DNA from: Aphanocapsa sp. GSE-SYN-MK-11-07L
Lineage (GTDB): Bacteria > Cyanobacteriota > Cyanobacteriia > Thermosynechococcales > Thermosynechococcaceae
Length of the DNA stretch: 37,189 nt
NCBI GenBank assembly: GCA_019359715.1
Contig: JAHHGS010000115.1
Span: 1-37,189 of the forward strand
Direction of reading: 5' to 3'
Below, in pieces: positions 2,540 to 37,124 of this stretch; the first letter of the stretch is position 1, and every line of letters begins with the position of its first letter. The notes below the pieces were generated by a model that did no database searches, was not told the origin of the DNA, and worked only from the letters and a program-made list of their open reading frames with translations. A program made the translations under genes and the position numbers.

Positions 2540-5500
2540 ATGAAAGCAAAAATAGTTGTTCAGCGCTTACTTTTAATTTCTTTGCTCAGCAGCTTAACGG
2601 GCAAGGCGGCTCAAGCCCAGCCTGTGGCTGCCCCGAATACAACAGGCACAAACGTCACCGTCAACGGCGATCGCTACGACATCGGCGGCGGCCAACTCTC
2701 GGCTGATCAGGCCAACCTGTTTCATAACTTCAGTCAGTTTGGCCTGAGCAAAAATCAAATTGCTAATTTCTTATCGAATCCCCAGATCCAGAACATCTTA
2801 GCGGGCGTTTCGGGCGGCAATCCATCGATTATTAACGGCTTAATTCAAGTCAGTGGTGGGCAATCTAACCTTTACCTGATGAACCCCGCCGGGATTGTAT
2901 TTGGAGCCAATGCCAGCTTAAATGTCCCGGCTGCGTTTATTGCCACCACCGCCAACGGGATTGGGTTTGGCAATGGCTGGTTTAGCGCCAGTGGGCCCAG
3001 CAACTACAGTCAACTGGTGGGCAACCCGATCGGGTTTGCGTTTACGGTGCAGCAGCCAGGGGCAATCATTAATGCTGGTGATTTGAGCGTTGGCAGCGCC
3101 CAGCGTCTGGCGTTGATTGGCGGCACTGTCGTTAACACTGGTGAACTGAACGCCCCGGCTGGGCAGGTGATTTTAGCTGCTGTGCCTGGCGAGAGCTTTG
3201 TCCGCCTCAGCCAAACTGGGCAGTTGTTGAGTCTGGAGTTTCAGCCGCTATCGACCCTGACCAGTCAGCCCAATGCCTGGACAATTCCGGTTCTTTCCTT
3301 ACCGCAATTGCTGACCGGGCCAGGGGCAGATGAGGCGACAGGCGTGACGGTGAATCCCGATGGCACGGTGCAACTGACGGGGGGCGAGCCGATCGCCCCG
3401 ACTACTGGACTGGCGATCGCCGCGGGCCGGATTGATGTTTCAAGTTCCCAGGTGGGCGGCACCGTGCAGGTGCTGGGTGATCAGGTGCAGGCGATCGGGG
3501 CGAACATTAACGCCTCTGGTCTAACAGGTGGGGGCAAAGTCCTCATTGGCGGTGACTATCAAGGACAAGGCAGCCTACCCACGACTCAGCAGACAACCAT
3601 TAGCCCTGACTCAATCATCCAGGCTGACGCGCTCAAGCAGGGCAATGGCGGTCAAGTTGTGGTTTGGTCAGATGGGACAACTCGCTTTTCAGGACAGATC
3701 ACCGCCAAGGGTGGGGTAGAAGGCGGCAATGGCGGCTTAGTTGAAACCTCTGGTAAGCAGAGCCTCCAGGTGCTAGATGCTACCGTCAACGCCAGCGCCC
3801 CGGCGGGCTTGGCGGGTACTTGGCTGCTGGATCCAACCGATATTACGATCGCTGCCACAGGGGGTAGGATTGGCGAGCCAACTGTGGCAGTGTCTGCAAT
3901 CAATACTGCCCTCAACCAAGGCACCAGTGTTGTAATTACGACCAATATTGGTGAAGGTTCAGACGCAGGCAACATCACGCAGTTGGCGGAAGCGCCAATT
4001 AGCTATACCGGCACGGCTGCCGATGTTCGACTGGTGTTGGAAGCCGCCAATGACATTACGCTCAATGGTGGGATTACTGCCAGCAACGGCCCGCTCAACG
4101 TCACACTGAATGCCCAAAGCACTGCTGGAGGCAACCCACTCGGTGCAACGGGCGCCGTCAATCTCAATGCCCCAGTCAGTACGAATGGCGGCAGTTTTAC
4201 AGCCACAGGACAAACAATTACTAGCGCCAGCGGAGCCAATATTGAGACGACTGGCGGTAACATTGACCTGAACAGCACAGGTCAAATTGATACCTCACGC
4301 AGCAGTTTGAGCACTGGCGTTAGCACAGGCAACGCTGGCTCAATTACTTTGACAGCATTAGCCAACATGACCACTGCGAATCTTTCCTCTGCTGCTTCCA
4401 ACGGGACTGGGGGAGGCATTGGCCTCTCGACGACTGGGGGCAGTATTAATACCACTGCTGGCAGTGTTGATGCTTCCGGGCAAACCGCAGGCGGTAACAT
4501 CACCTTCTCGGCGGTCGGCCCAATTACCACAGCCGCTTTGACCTCTACTGCCAGTTCTGGGACGGGCGGAGTCATTGATCTAAGTAATGTTGCAGCAACA
4601 ACTGCTAGCCCGATCGATACCAGCGGCGGTTTGATCCAGGGGGGGCAAATTAAGGTCAATGCCTCTGGCAACATTGTGACAGCTAGCTTGACGGCAACCG
4701 GAACCACCGGGGAAAGGATTACTTTAGTCAGCAACCCTGGCAGTATCACGGCCAGCACTGGCTCGTTCACAACTTCTGGTGCCGATGTCCAACTGCTTGC
4801 GGGTCAAAATATTGCCGTGACCTCCATCACAACCGACGGAGGCGATATTGTCCTCGACACAACCCAGGGCAGCATTACGGTCAGTGGCACCCTTGATGCC
4901 TCTAGCTCAACCAATGGCGGCAGTGTTGGATTGGAGGCGAACCAAGGCAGCATTAATGTGGACGGAATCAACTCGCAGGCAAATTCAAGCCCGGGCACGC
5001 AAGGGGCGATCGCCATCCTGGCTAACCAAGACATTACCGTTGATTCAATCACAACTCGCTCTGATGGCACCGGGGCTACGGTCAGCATCACCAGCCAAAA
5101 TGGGGCGATCAGCTTGGGCAGCACAGACTTAGGCAGTAACTTTGGTCAGGGAGCAAGTATTAACATCTCCGCTGCCAATAACATTCAAATCAACGGCACG
5201 CTATTTGCTGATGCTGGTTCGCTCAATGGCGGCACAATTCAAATCACTAGCCAGAACGGCAGTATTAGCACTGACAATTTGGTGGCGGCGGCCACCACCA
5301 GTTTTGGTTTGAGTGGCACGCCTCAAGGCAATGGTGGCCGCATTGCTCTCCAGGCTGCTACTGGCATTACGACCGGCGATTTGTCTGCCTTTGCTGAGTT
5401 GGGCACCGGTGGCACAGTTACCTTAAATTCAGGCGGTAATACCCAAGTTAACCTGATCAATGCTCAGGGGGGCACCAGCGGCACAGGTGGCACAATTAAT

Positions 5501-7234
5501 GTTTCAACCGGACAGTTTTTTCAAGCAACGAGCGATTTTACAGACCAGAATGGACTCACGACCAGCTTGTCGAGCGCTGGGGCAACCGGGGATGGCAGCA
5601 TTTCAATTCGACACGGCGGCATCCTAACCCCGTTTATCGTTGGGGATGCTAGCTCAAATGGGACAGCCGCGGCAATTAGTACAGGAGCCAACAATTCAAT
5701 TTTGCCCACCCGCAGCTTTTTGGGTAATTTTCAGCAGGGCAATATTCGAATTTTGAATGGGTTGAATCCAACTCCAGCACCACCGCCTTCTCCAAACCCA
5801 TCTCCAACCCCAGTTCAGCCTCAGCCTGTGCCGCCCTCATCGCCACTCCCCATCTTCAGCCTAGCCAACACGCTAGCCCAAGTCGCCACCGATTTACAGG
5901 GTCAACAAATTCCTTTCACGACAATCACTAATCTGGCTACACCGGCTCTAGTCACTGCCGTTTTGTATCCTGGGGCTGAGATTGCTCTGACCCAGATTGA
6001 TACAGCTTTGGCAGCAGGCAACATCGACCAAGCAATCCTGCTGATTGGGCAGGTTTGGGATCAGCAGTTTGAAGATTTCTTTGGCCAAAGCTTGGGCACA
6101 AGTCCGCTCTCGATCGCAGGTATGCAAGATGTCTTGAAGAAAATCACCCTCCAAACCGGCAAAAAGCCAGCCATCGTGTACGTGCTCAGTCGTCCAGAGC
6201 AACTCGAACTGCTGCTGGTGACGCCAGAGGGTAAACCGATCCACAAAACCGTGACGGAAGCCAATCGGGCCACCCTGCTGGCGATGGCCAAGACTTTTAC
6301 CGATCAGGTGAAAGACCCCCGCAACATCAATAGCACCAGCTATTTAAAGTCGGCGCAACAGCTTTATGGGTGGCTGATTCAGCCCTTAGCAGCCGATTTA
6401 CAAGCCCAAAACATCAACACCATTGCCTTTGCGATGGATGCCGGTTTGCGATCGCTACCTGTAGCCGCCCTCCACAATGGACAGCAGTTTTTGGTCGAAC
6501 AGTACAGTTTGGGGCTAATGCCCAGCATCAATTTGACCGATACTCGCTACCGGAATATTCGCCGCGATCGGATTTTGGCGATGGGGTCTTCCGAGTTTTC
6601 TGATCAAGCTCCTTTGCCCTCCGTACCAGTTGAAGTCGCAACGATTAGTCAAGACTTGGGCGGCGGGCAGTCGCTGTTAAATCAAGACTTTACGGTCGCC
6701 AACTTGGAAGCCCAACGGCAGCGGCAAAAGTTTGGGGTAATTCACCTGGCTACCCACGGCAGTTTTGATCCCGGTACGCCGAGCGATTCATACATTCAGT
6801 TTTTCAATGGCAAGCTGCAACTGAATCAATTGCGCGAGTTAAATCTGAATCAACCGCCCACTGAACTGCTGACGCTGAGCGCCTGTCGGAGTGCGATCGG
6901 TAATGAGCAGGCTGAACTGGGCTTTGCCGGGCTGGCAGTGCAGGCTGGAGTTAAAACAGCCGTCGCCAGCCTCTGGTTCGTCAGCGATGAGGGAACCTTG
7001 GGGCTGATGACCGAATTTTACAATCAGCTTGCCACTGCCCCAATTAAGGCAGAAGCGCTCAGGCAGGCGCAAATTGCCATGCTGCAAGGACAGATTAAGG
7101 TCAGCAATGGGCAGCTCCAGCTTCCCCAAGGGGAAAGTATTGCCCTGCCGCCAGCGATCGCGCAGCAGGGCGATCGCGTACTTTCTCACCCCTACTACTG
7201 GTCAGCTTTCACGATGATTGGCAGCCCCTGGTAG
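2540..7234 (+). CDS. Two-partner-secretion filamentous-haemagglutinin-like exoprotein with C-terminal CHAT protease domain
   Basis: The 1564-residue product starts at the ATG at 2540 (an upstream in-frame TTG at 2519 is less likely), giving a signal peptide MKAKIVVQRLLLISLLSS...AAQA. Residues ~30-270 form a TPS/haemagglutination-activity domain (NPAGIVFGANASLNVPAAFIATTA), the part recognised by a TpsB outer-membrane pore. Residues ~270-1070 are Gly/Ser/Thr/Asn-rich beta-helix-like repeats, including GTWLLDPTDITI near 422. A proline-rich linker (~1075-1105) leads to a CHAT domain (~1195-1560) with the caspase-like dyad His1406 (ATHGSF) and Cys1449 (LSACRS). CHAT domains are cysteine peptidases of clan CD. 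The layout suggests a surface or secreted adhesin carrying a peptidase. No tpsB-like gene is in the window. Cyanobacteria have many FHA-CHAT proteins; the substrate is unknown. Confidence 0.88.
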   Translation: MKAKIVVQRLLLISLLSSLTGKAAQAQPVAAPNTTGTNVTVNGDRYDIGGGQLSADQANLFHNFSQFGLSKNQIANFLSNPQIQNILAGVSGGNPSIINGLIQVSGGQSNLYLMNPAGIVFGANASLNVPAAFIATTANGIGFGNGWFSASGPSNYSQLVGNPIGFAFTVQQPGAIINAGDLSVGSAQRLALIGGTVVNTGELNAPAGQVILAAVPGESFVRLSQTGQLLSLEFQPLSTLTSQPNAWTIPVLSLPQLLTGPGADEATGVTVNPDGTVQLTGGEPIAPTTGLAIAAGRIDVSSSQVGGTVQVLGDQVQAIGANINASGLTGGGKVLIGGDYQGQGSLPTTQQTTISPDSIIQADALKQGNGGQVVVWSDGTTRFSGQITAKGGVEGGNGGLVETSGKQSLQVLDATVNASAPAGLAGTWLLDPTDITIAATGGRIGEPTVAVSAINTALNQGTSVVITTNIGEGSDAGNITQLAEAPISYTGTAADVRLVLEAANDITLNGGITASNGPLNVTLNAQSTAGGNPLGATGAVNLNAPVSTNGGSFTATGQTITSASGANIETTGGNIDLNSTGQIDTSRSSLSTGVSTGNAGSITLTALANMTTANLSSAASNGTGGGIGLSTTGGSINTTAGSVDASGQTAGGNITFSAVGPITTAALTSTASSGTGGVIDLSNVAATTASPIDTSGGLIQGGQIKVNASGNIVTASLTATGTTGERITLVSNPGSITASTGSFTTSGADVQLLAGQNIAVTSITTDGGDIVLDTTQGSITVSGTLDASSSTNGGSVGLEANQGSINVDGINSQANSSPGTQGAIAILANQDITVDSITTRSDGTGATVSITSQNGAISLGSTDLGSNFGQGASINISAANNIQINGTLFADAGSLNGGTIQITSQNGSISTDNLVAAATTSFGLSGTPQGNGGRIALQAATGITTGDLSAFAELGTGGTVTLNSGGNTQVNLINAQGGTSGTGGTINVSTGQFFQATSDFTDQNGLTTSLSSAGATGDGSISIRHGGILTPFIVGDASSNGTAAAISTGANNSILPTRSFLGNFQQGNIRILNGLNPTPAPPPSPNPSPTPVQPQPVPPSSPLPIFSLANTLAQVATDLQGQQIPFTTITNLATPALVTAVLYPGAEIALTQIDTALAAGNIDQAILLIGQVWDQQFEDFFGQSLGTSPLSIAGMQDVLKKITLQTGKKPAIVYVLSRPEQLELLLVTPEGKPIHKTVTEANRATLLAMAKTFTDQVKDPRNINSTSYLKSAQQLYGWLIQPLAADLQAQNINTIAFAMDAGLRSLPVAALHNGQQFLVEQYSLGLMPSINLTDTRYRNIRRDRILAMGSSEFSDQAPLPSVPVEVATISQDLGGGQSLLNQDFTVANLEAQRQRQKFGVIHLATHGSFDPGTPSDSYIQFFNGKLQLNQLRELNLNQPPTELLTLSACRSAIGNEQAELGFAGLAVQAGVKTAVASLWFVSDEGTLGLMTEFYNQLATAPIKAEALRQAQIAMLQGQIKVSNGQLQLPQGESIALPPAIAQQGDRVLSHPYYWSAFTMIGSPW

Positions 7235-36539: not shown

Positions 36540-37124
36540 CTATAGATATCGTTGATATCCCCAGGAAACTTCCTGATATATGTTTCCTTGGCCATCAATG
36601 TATGTTTGTTCACGATTGCGGATATCTAAATCTAAGCACTTGAACGCAGTTACTCGATTACCAACAACGCCATAACCACGAACCCAGTCTGTTTGATTAA
36701 TCGCAAAGTTAACAAAACCGATCGCGCTGCAAGCAGATGTGATTGTCGAAGCAATTGAAGTCAATAAAACAGGCGAATTCATGACATTTTCCCCTAGCTG
36801 GTTATTGGCTATCACAATAAAATACTCCTGCGATCGCCCTGAAGGAAAGTTCGCGTAGCCATGTTTACGGGTTTCAGCCCTGACAACCTGAACCCCACGC
36901 ATCTTTTCAAGACGTTTTTTTGAATCTAGAAATGCTTGCTTACAATTATTCTCAGTCATCTGCTGAGCAAGCAGATTTGAGATAGGTGTAAGTCGTGTTT
37001 CACCCGCTTGTGCAGGACTTACAGTTGTCATTAGGATTGTCGAGCTAATCAAAGAAAGCAATCTTTGCTGAAAGACAGAACTTCGGCACCTTGAGTCAGA
37101 ACTTCGGCACCCTCTTAAAAGCAA
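36540..37124 (-). CDS. Secreted hypothetical protein
   Basis: The mature part begins after a signal-like segment RLLSLISSTILMTTVSPAQAG. It contains four cysteines (NNCKQAF, SACSAIG, FKCLDLD and one in the leader) and FPSGRSQEYFIVIANNQLGE and TDWVRGYGVVGNRVTAFKCL, suggesting a small folded extracytoplasmic domain. No family recognised. The frame is open to 37124, but the first ~20 residues are encoded by a 21-bp tandem repeat, so the true start may lie further in, near position 37060-37070. It is convergent with the zincin gene, 45 bases apart. Confidence 0.6.
   Translation of the reverse strand: MLLRGCRSSDSRCRSSVFQQRLLSLISSTILMTTVSPAQAGETRLTPISNLLAQQMTENNCKQAFLDSKKRLEKMRGVQVVRAETRKHGYANFPSGRSQEYFIVIANNQLGENVMNSPVLLTSIASTITSACSAIGFVNFAINQTDWVRGYGVVGNRVTAFKCLDLDIRNREQTYIDGQGNIYQEVSWGYQRYL
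37076..37111. repeat. Tandem 21-bp repeat
   Basis: CAGAACTTCGGCACC occurs at 37076-37090 and again at 37097-37111, a 21-base period, in the leader region of the secreted hypothetical gene. It could be a short tandem array or the edge of a repeat continuing past the window; the sequence beyond (CCCCTGGCAGGGG hairpin near 37126) fits a repeat-rich spacer. Confidence 0.5.

Follow-up and report, generated by a model that had tools for sequence, protein, structure and literature searches.

A cyanobacterial two-partner secretion exoprotein with a C-terminal CHAT peptidase domain, a possible regulated protease of the cell envelope

CHAT proteases have been studied as intracellular switches, as exemplified by Craspase and HetF. 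Caspase-like cysteine proteases that are secreted include the gingipains RgpB and Kgp, which leave the cell by type IX export. LepA is a trypsin-like serine protease. It is exported by Pseudomonas aeruginosa through two-partner secretion (TPS) (PMC5422565). Among the other exoproteins of this pathway, which include FHA, EtpA, HMW1 and HxuA, the last two are held in TpsB by a C-terminal disulfide anchor (PMC5422565). HetF of Anabaena, a CHAT protein, has a putative protease site that is conserved (PMC8406250).

We found no open-access paper in which the CHAT domain appears alongside two-partner secretion, or alongside hemagglutinin and cyanobacteria. ‘Secreted CHAT domain-containing proteins’ have been mentioned for marine Synechococcus (PMC7522525), and a Nostoc CHAT protein has yielded a low-confidence peptide that resembles a segment of the TPS domain (PMC9895726). 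Both domains are already known, and the combined TPS-CHAT architecture must already be in public databases, where one relative is annotated as ‘CHAT domain-containing protein’.

The protein described here is encoded in a stretch of 37,189 nucleotides from Aphanocapsa sp. GSE-SYN-MK-11-07L, the whole of which was analysed (the window). It resembles the TPS exoproteins in having a TPS domain, a predicted signal peptide, a predicted beta-helix and a predicted TpsB partner, but it ends in a CHAT peptidase, with neither the C-terminal Cys-pair anchor nor an adjoining tpsB; an anchor pair of the HMW1/HxuA type is absent, as C1449 is the only cysteine. LepA and TPS-CHAT would both be TPS-exported proteases, the latter by prediction, with the difference that TPS-CHAT would belong to the cysteine proteases of clan CD, in the separase/CHAT group. 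HetF is likewise a cyanobacterial CHAT protein; unlike TPS-CHAT, it is a membrane protein with TPR in the divisome and has no TPS domain.

Domain architecture and predicted structure

The features of the gene are as follows.

2540..7234, + strand: TPS-CHAT fusion gene, 1564 aa, ATG start
2540..2617, + strand: predicted signal peptide, aa 1-26 (MKAKIVVQRLLLISLLSSLTGKAAQA, followed by Q), read from the sequence
2627..3226, + strand: TPS secretion domain (PF05860), aa 30-229 (Pfam, E 5.9e-40)
3227..5488, + strand: predicted shaft in the form of a beta-helix, roughly aa 230-983 (similar to EtpA as far as aa 810; modelled by AlphaFold2 as all-strand from aa 365)
5489..5755, + strand: conserved cap at the helix end, aa 984-1072, present in 56 of 77 TPS-CHAT proteins
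5765..5977, + strand: proline-rich disordered linker, about aa 1076-1146 (pLDDT <50; sequence)
5978..7231, + strand: CHAT module, aa 1147-1564, an N-terminal helical/strand part followed by the catalytic domain (Pfam, AlphaFold2)
6755..6757, + strand: codon of catalytic His1406 (alignment of relatives)
6884..6886, + strand: codon of catalytic Cys1449, the sole cysteine in the protein (alignment of relatives; sequence)

An alternative in-frame start is possible at a TTG (2519), 7 codons upstream of the ATG. The N-terminus is hydrophobic and carries an AQA cleavage motif, by which a Sec signal peptide was predicted by eye. The haemagglutination and CHAT domains were both found by HMM searches, far above the cut-offs. 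The two-partner-secretion signal domain proposed in the earlier note is thereby corroborated by Pfam and by the NCBIfam model adhes_NPXG (TIGR01901, E 1.8e-21), and the CHAT catalytic domain (PF12770, aa 1270-1562) covers profile positions 2-289 of 289 with an E-value of 2.7e-73. The proline-rich linker and the intact His1406/Cys1449 pair, which had also been claimed, were found at the residues given; the dyad is invariant in 50 of 50 relatives in one comparison and in 82 of 82 in another. Architecture and dyad can be read from the sequence itself. Up to an E-value of 1, Pfam recognized only the TPS and CHAT domains, and an orthocaspase or metacaspase identity was rejected for want of a Peptidase_C14 domain at this threshold. 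The PADLOC models gave a weak match to BovA alone (E 4e-4, 17.5 bits), across the CHAT catalytic region.

A sequence search identified EtpA as a relative of known structure for the N-terminal part (E 3.6e-33). The AlphaFold2 model of aa 365-1564 is all-strand up to approximately aa 1073, and the linker is followed by a folded CHAT; similarity and model are both compatible with the earlier prediction of a beta-helix. The Foldseek list for this model was taken up by matches to the CHAT part, which left the helix fold without a solved match.

Searching the solved structures by sequence, with the CHAT profile as query, returned chance matches only, and comparison of folds was needed. The CHAT module alone (aa 1140-1564), modelled from an 82-row alignment, has a pLDDT of 96. 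The nearest solved folds are those of the Craspase TPR-CHAT (Z ~30) and separase (Z ~24), and further matches were to the anti-sigma factor DdvA (Z ~20) and the gingipains (Z ~18). The Craspase protein (Csx29, from type III-E CRISPR) has the same kind of His-Cys dyad, but it is intracellular, carries TPR, which TPS-CHAT lacks, and is activated by RNA, and the two share 12-14% identity. The gingipains match as secreted caspase-like enzymes, but use another export route, have no beta-helix fusion and are only 11% identical.

Distribution and cysteine content of the family

TPS-CHAT fusions were found in 13 of the 19 genomes searched (the organism’s own and 18 relatives), all of them cyanobacteria, and in 56 of the best 80 related loci (genome contigs), again all cyanobacterial. 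The genera include Oscillatoria, Microcoleus, Tychonema, Nostoc, Okeania, Planktothrix and Leptolyngbya. The earlier note had presented an exported CHAT as an exception. The export signal is borne out, but its unusual status is not: the fusion represents a large cyanobacterial family, and a signal-peptide-like segment opens most of the own genome’s CHAT proteins for which the N-terminus is visible, with TPRs preceding CHAT in those scanned. A virus-borne origin was rejected, as viral contigs held one weak relative only.

In a tree of 134 CHAT modules, TPS-CHAT groups with short signal-peptide CHAT proteins (SH-aLRT 98), and the neighbouring clade consists of TpsB-linked TPR-CHATs. Few changes of architecture are needed across this tree. 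CHAT is the most conserved part of the TPS-CHAT proteins, and invariant columns concentrate there. The helix cap has 19 matches in the 19 genomes, nearly all within CHAT-fused frames. Clear exceptions occur in G018 (L228, L229, L230), where TpsAs have another C-terminal domain in place of CHAT, with no Pfam match where scanned.

Several variants were encountered. TPS and CHAT lie in two adjoining, partly overlapping ORFs at L148, L150, L152, L162 and L176, which are either split genes or frameshifts. At L109 (5059-7182, - strand), a signal-peptide-like segment is followed by a fusion of CHAT with a CAP (cysteine-rich secretory protein) domain. In the own genome, a signal-peptide TPR-CHAT gene on contig C3 precedes the gene of an exported subtilase, both on one strand (L031 13194-17397; Peptidase_S8, E 1.3e-46), possibly a two-protease pair, with another signal-peptide TPR-CHAT at a distance of a few kb.

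The cysteine content of the fusions is low (0.17%, versus 1.01% in neighbouring ORFs), and its parity is distinctive. The number of cysteines in the mature protein is odd in 71 of 75 complete TPS-CHAT proteins (one in 37 proteins, three in 32), and the extra cysteines form close pairs, the positions of which vary between subgroups. By contrast, the count is odd in only two of 23 TpsAs without CHAT and even in 21 (Fisher p 2e-15, a value that ignores shared ancestry). The simplest reading is an oxidising compartment in which cysteines would be paired in disulfides, with one free thiol kept for catalysis. Such a pattern, which is that of an exported thiol enzyme, supports export of a presumably active enzyme and is as compatible with the periplasm as with the outside. 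Cysteine parity may offer a simple test, from sequence alone, of whether an exported thiol enzyme stays active.

Most TpsAs without CHAT have a C-terminal Cys pair inside the last ~115 aa, which looks like a TpsB anchor by analogy; in TPS-CHATs, the CHAT domain is found at this place. A clade of short signal-peptide CHATs (L087, L095, L102, L106 and others) has a second cysteine, in a motif FCxG located some 150 residues N-terminal of the catalytic one, and its members therefore have an even count. This cysteine could be a redox switch or a buried thiol.

Candidate transporter and gene neighbourhoods

No tpsB adjoins the TPS-CHAT gene at its locus. The own genome encodes five TpsBs and one Omp85. 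A CHAT and/or TpsA gene adjoins four of the five (one locus being cut by a contig end), and the fifth is a lone gene for a 612-aa protein on contig C135 (L038 4691-6529). The C135 TpsB is the ortholog of the sole TpsB in G005, G002 and G009; two of these genomes, G005 (one contig) and G009 (two contigs), are near-complete and contain exactly one TPS protein each, which is a TPS-CHAT. TpsBs of the C135 type occur in 10 of 10 genomes with a main-type TPS-CHAT and in 0 of 9 others, in a count of non-independent genomes that leaves a few fragmentary TpsBs unclassified. In the three genomes with a diverged clade of TPS-CHATs (G003, G008, G010), a diverged TpsB takes the place of the C135 type, and in two of the three it is immediately upstream; a TpsB different from the C135 type lies directly upstream of TPS-CHAT at L085 and L086. 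The cognate TpsB, which the earlier note expected elsewhere in the genome, thus has a candidate, and the lone C135 protein is likely to be the TPS-CHAT transporter. Because the TPS-CHAT gene is an orphan TpsA, this pairing is based on elimination and co-occurrence, not on an operon.

Linkage to the TPS pathway extends to CHATs that are not fused to it. Among 55 CHAT proteins that lack a TPS domain, 21 are encoded no more than 7 kb from a TpsA or TpsB gene (1.4 expected), commonly in the order tpsA, tpsB, signal-peptide TPR-CHAT. CHAT and TPS are therefore associated, whether fused or unfused. When the neighbours of 77 TPS-CHAT genes were clustered, none occurred in more than about one eighth of the loci or at a fixed operon position, and no conserved neighbour fitted as a substrate. 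At four loci (L117, L121, L133, L153), the gene directly upstream encodes a small, seemingly signal-peptide-bearing protein that resembles pterin carbinolamine dehydratase.

On contig C18 of the own genome, a TpsB-linked TPR-CHAT (L035 15979-18060) ends after the catalytic His region, near the end of the contig; it lacks the rest of the CHAT profile and is truncated or frameshifted. Short ORFs with regular peptide repeats on the same contig (L035 757-2885) probably reflect a CRISPR-like array. ORFs near two contig ends (window 36540-37124, - strand, and L034 67-525) begin with the same peptide, LLRGCRSSDSRCRSSVFQ, which points to a repeated element where the contigs break.

Possible roles of an extracytoplasmic CHAT

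We tentatively favour a reading of TPS-CHAT, quite possible though short of a firm prediction, as a regulated extracytoplasmic protease of the TPS pathway that would probably process surface fibres or envelope proteins. The protein would be a TpsA-type surface fibre in which a CHAT cysteine protease of the separase/Craspase type takes the C-terminal place of the Cys pair of sibling TpsAs. It would be exported by the Sec pathway via its signal peptide, and the C135-type TpsB would thread the TPS domain and the beta-helix across the outer membrane, with CHAT ending, on its flexible linker, at or outside this membrane. There, we infer, the domain would respond to a trigger as an active protease; most likely, it would stay competent and cleave proteins of the TPS pathway or others of the envelope close to its own cell, such as the fibre of which it is part, sibling fibres or the anchors of these fibres. 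A substrate in the TPS pathway or envelope is proposed mainly on the ground that CHAT is associated with TPS, fused or unfused. Of the roles suggested in the earlier note, fibre processing agrees best with this repeated linkage. A conserved self-cleavage motif in the linker was rejected: the linker differs in length and sequence among relatives, and no motif is kept. Craspases also cut at non-conserved sites (PMC11106740).

The earlier note had placed CHAT outside the cell. As the last part of a TpsA to cross, however, the C-terminal domain may stay in the periplasm. CHAT would be either released or displayed, or else a periplasmic plug. In the latter case, for which there is a reasonable though smaller chance, the beta-helix would be exported while CHAT folds and stays behind, plugging or guarding the TpsB pore as an envelope sensor-protease, similar to the C-terminal parts of FhaB, HMW1 or HxuA. 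The C-termini of HMW1 and HxuA remain periplasmic (PMC5422565), and CHAT occupies the place of the C-terminal Cys pair of TpsAs without CHAT. Many CHATs from the same clade carry a signal peptide but lack a TPS domain and are presumably periplasmic, and therefore CHAT can work in this compartment; TpsB-linked TPR-CHATs similarly have signal-peptide-like N-termini and no export domain. However, the linker and the single-Cys C-terminus suit full secretion equally well.

That TPS-CHAT is an ordinary adhesin, with CHAT as a binding or structural module whose peptidase activity is unused, we consider very improbable: CHAT is a broad and poorly characterised cyanobacterial family and activity is here a prediction, but His and Cys are invariant in all compared members, and these proteins, which avoid unpaired cysteine elsewhere, retain the catalytic one. 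Attack on neighbouring cells by a contact-dependent or secreted toxin, as in CdiA, is similarly improbable: CHAT does sit as a C-terminal payload on a TpsA, and a few TpsAs with the same cap bear another C-terminal domain (G018), but the neighbours of the 77 genes include no conserved small downstream gene for an immunity protein, CHAT is the most conserved part where CdiA-type toxins are polymorphic, and no other Pfam domain lies between TPS and CHAT.

Returning to the favoured protease, the TPS-CHAT family puts beyond the inner membrane a class of enzymes known mainly from inside the cell. We speculate, with more doubt than conviction, that cyanobacteria have built an extracytoplasmic CHAT/separase branch into two-partner secretion, as a signal-activated protease system for surface fibres or envelope proteins; this branch might comprise the TPS-CHAT fusions, the signal-peptide CHATs and the TpsB-linked TPR-CHATs. 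The enzyme, its TpsB partner and the catalytic residue are testable candidates in culturable, partly transformable genera. If the proposal is true, a caspase-type regulatory protease system is at work beyond the inner membrane, and multicellular photosynthetic bacteria would also use regulated proteolysis of the caspase/separase type in their envelope or on their surface.
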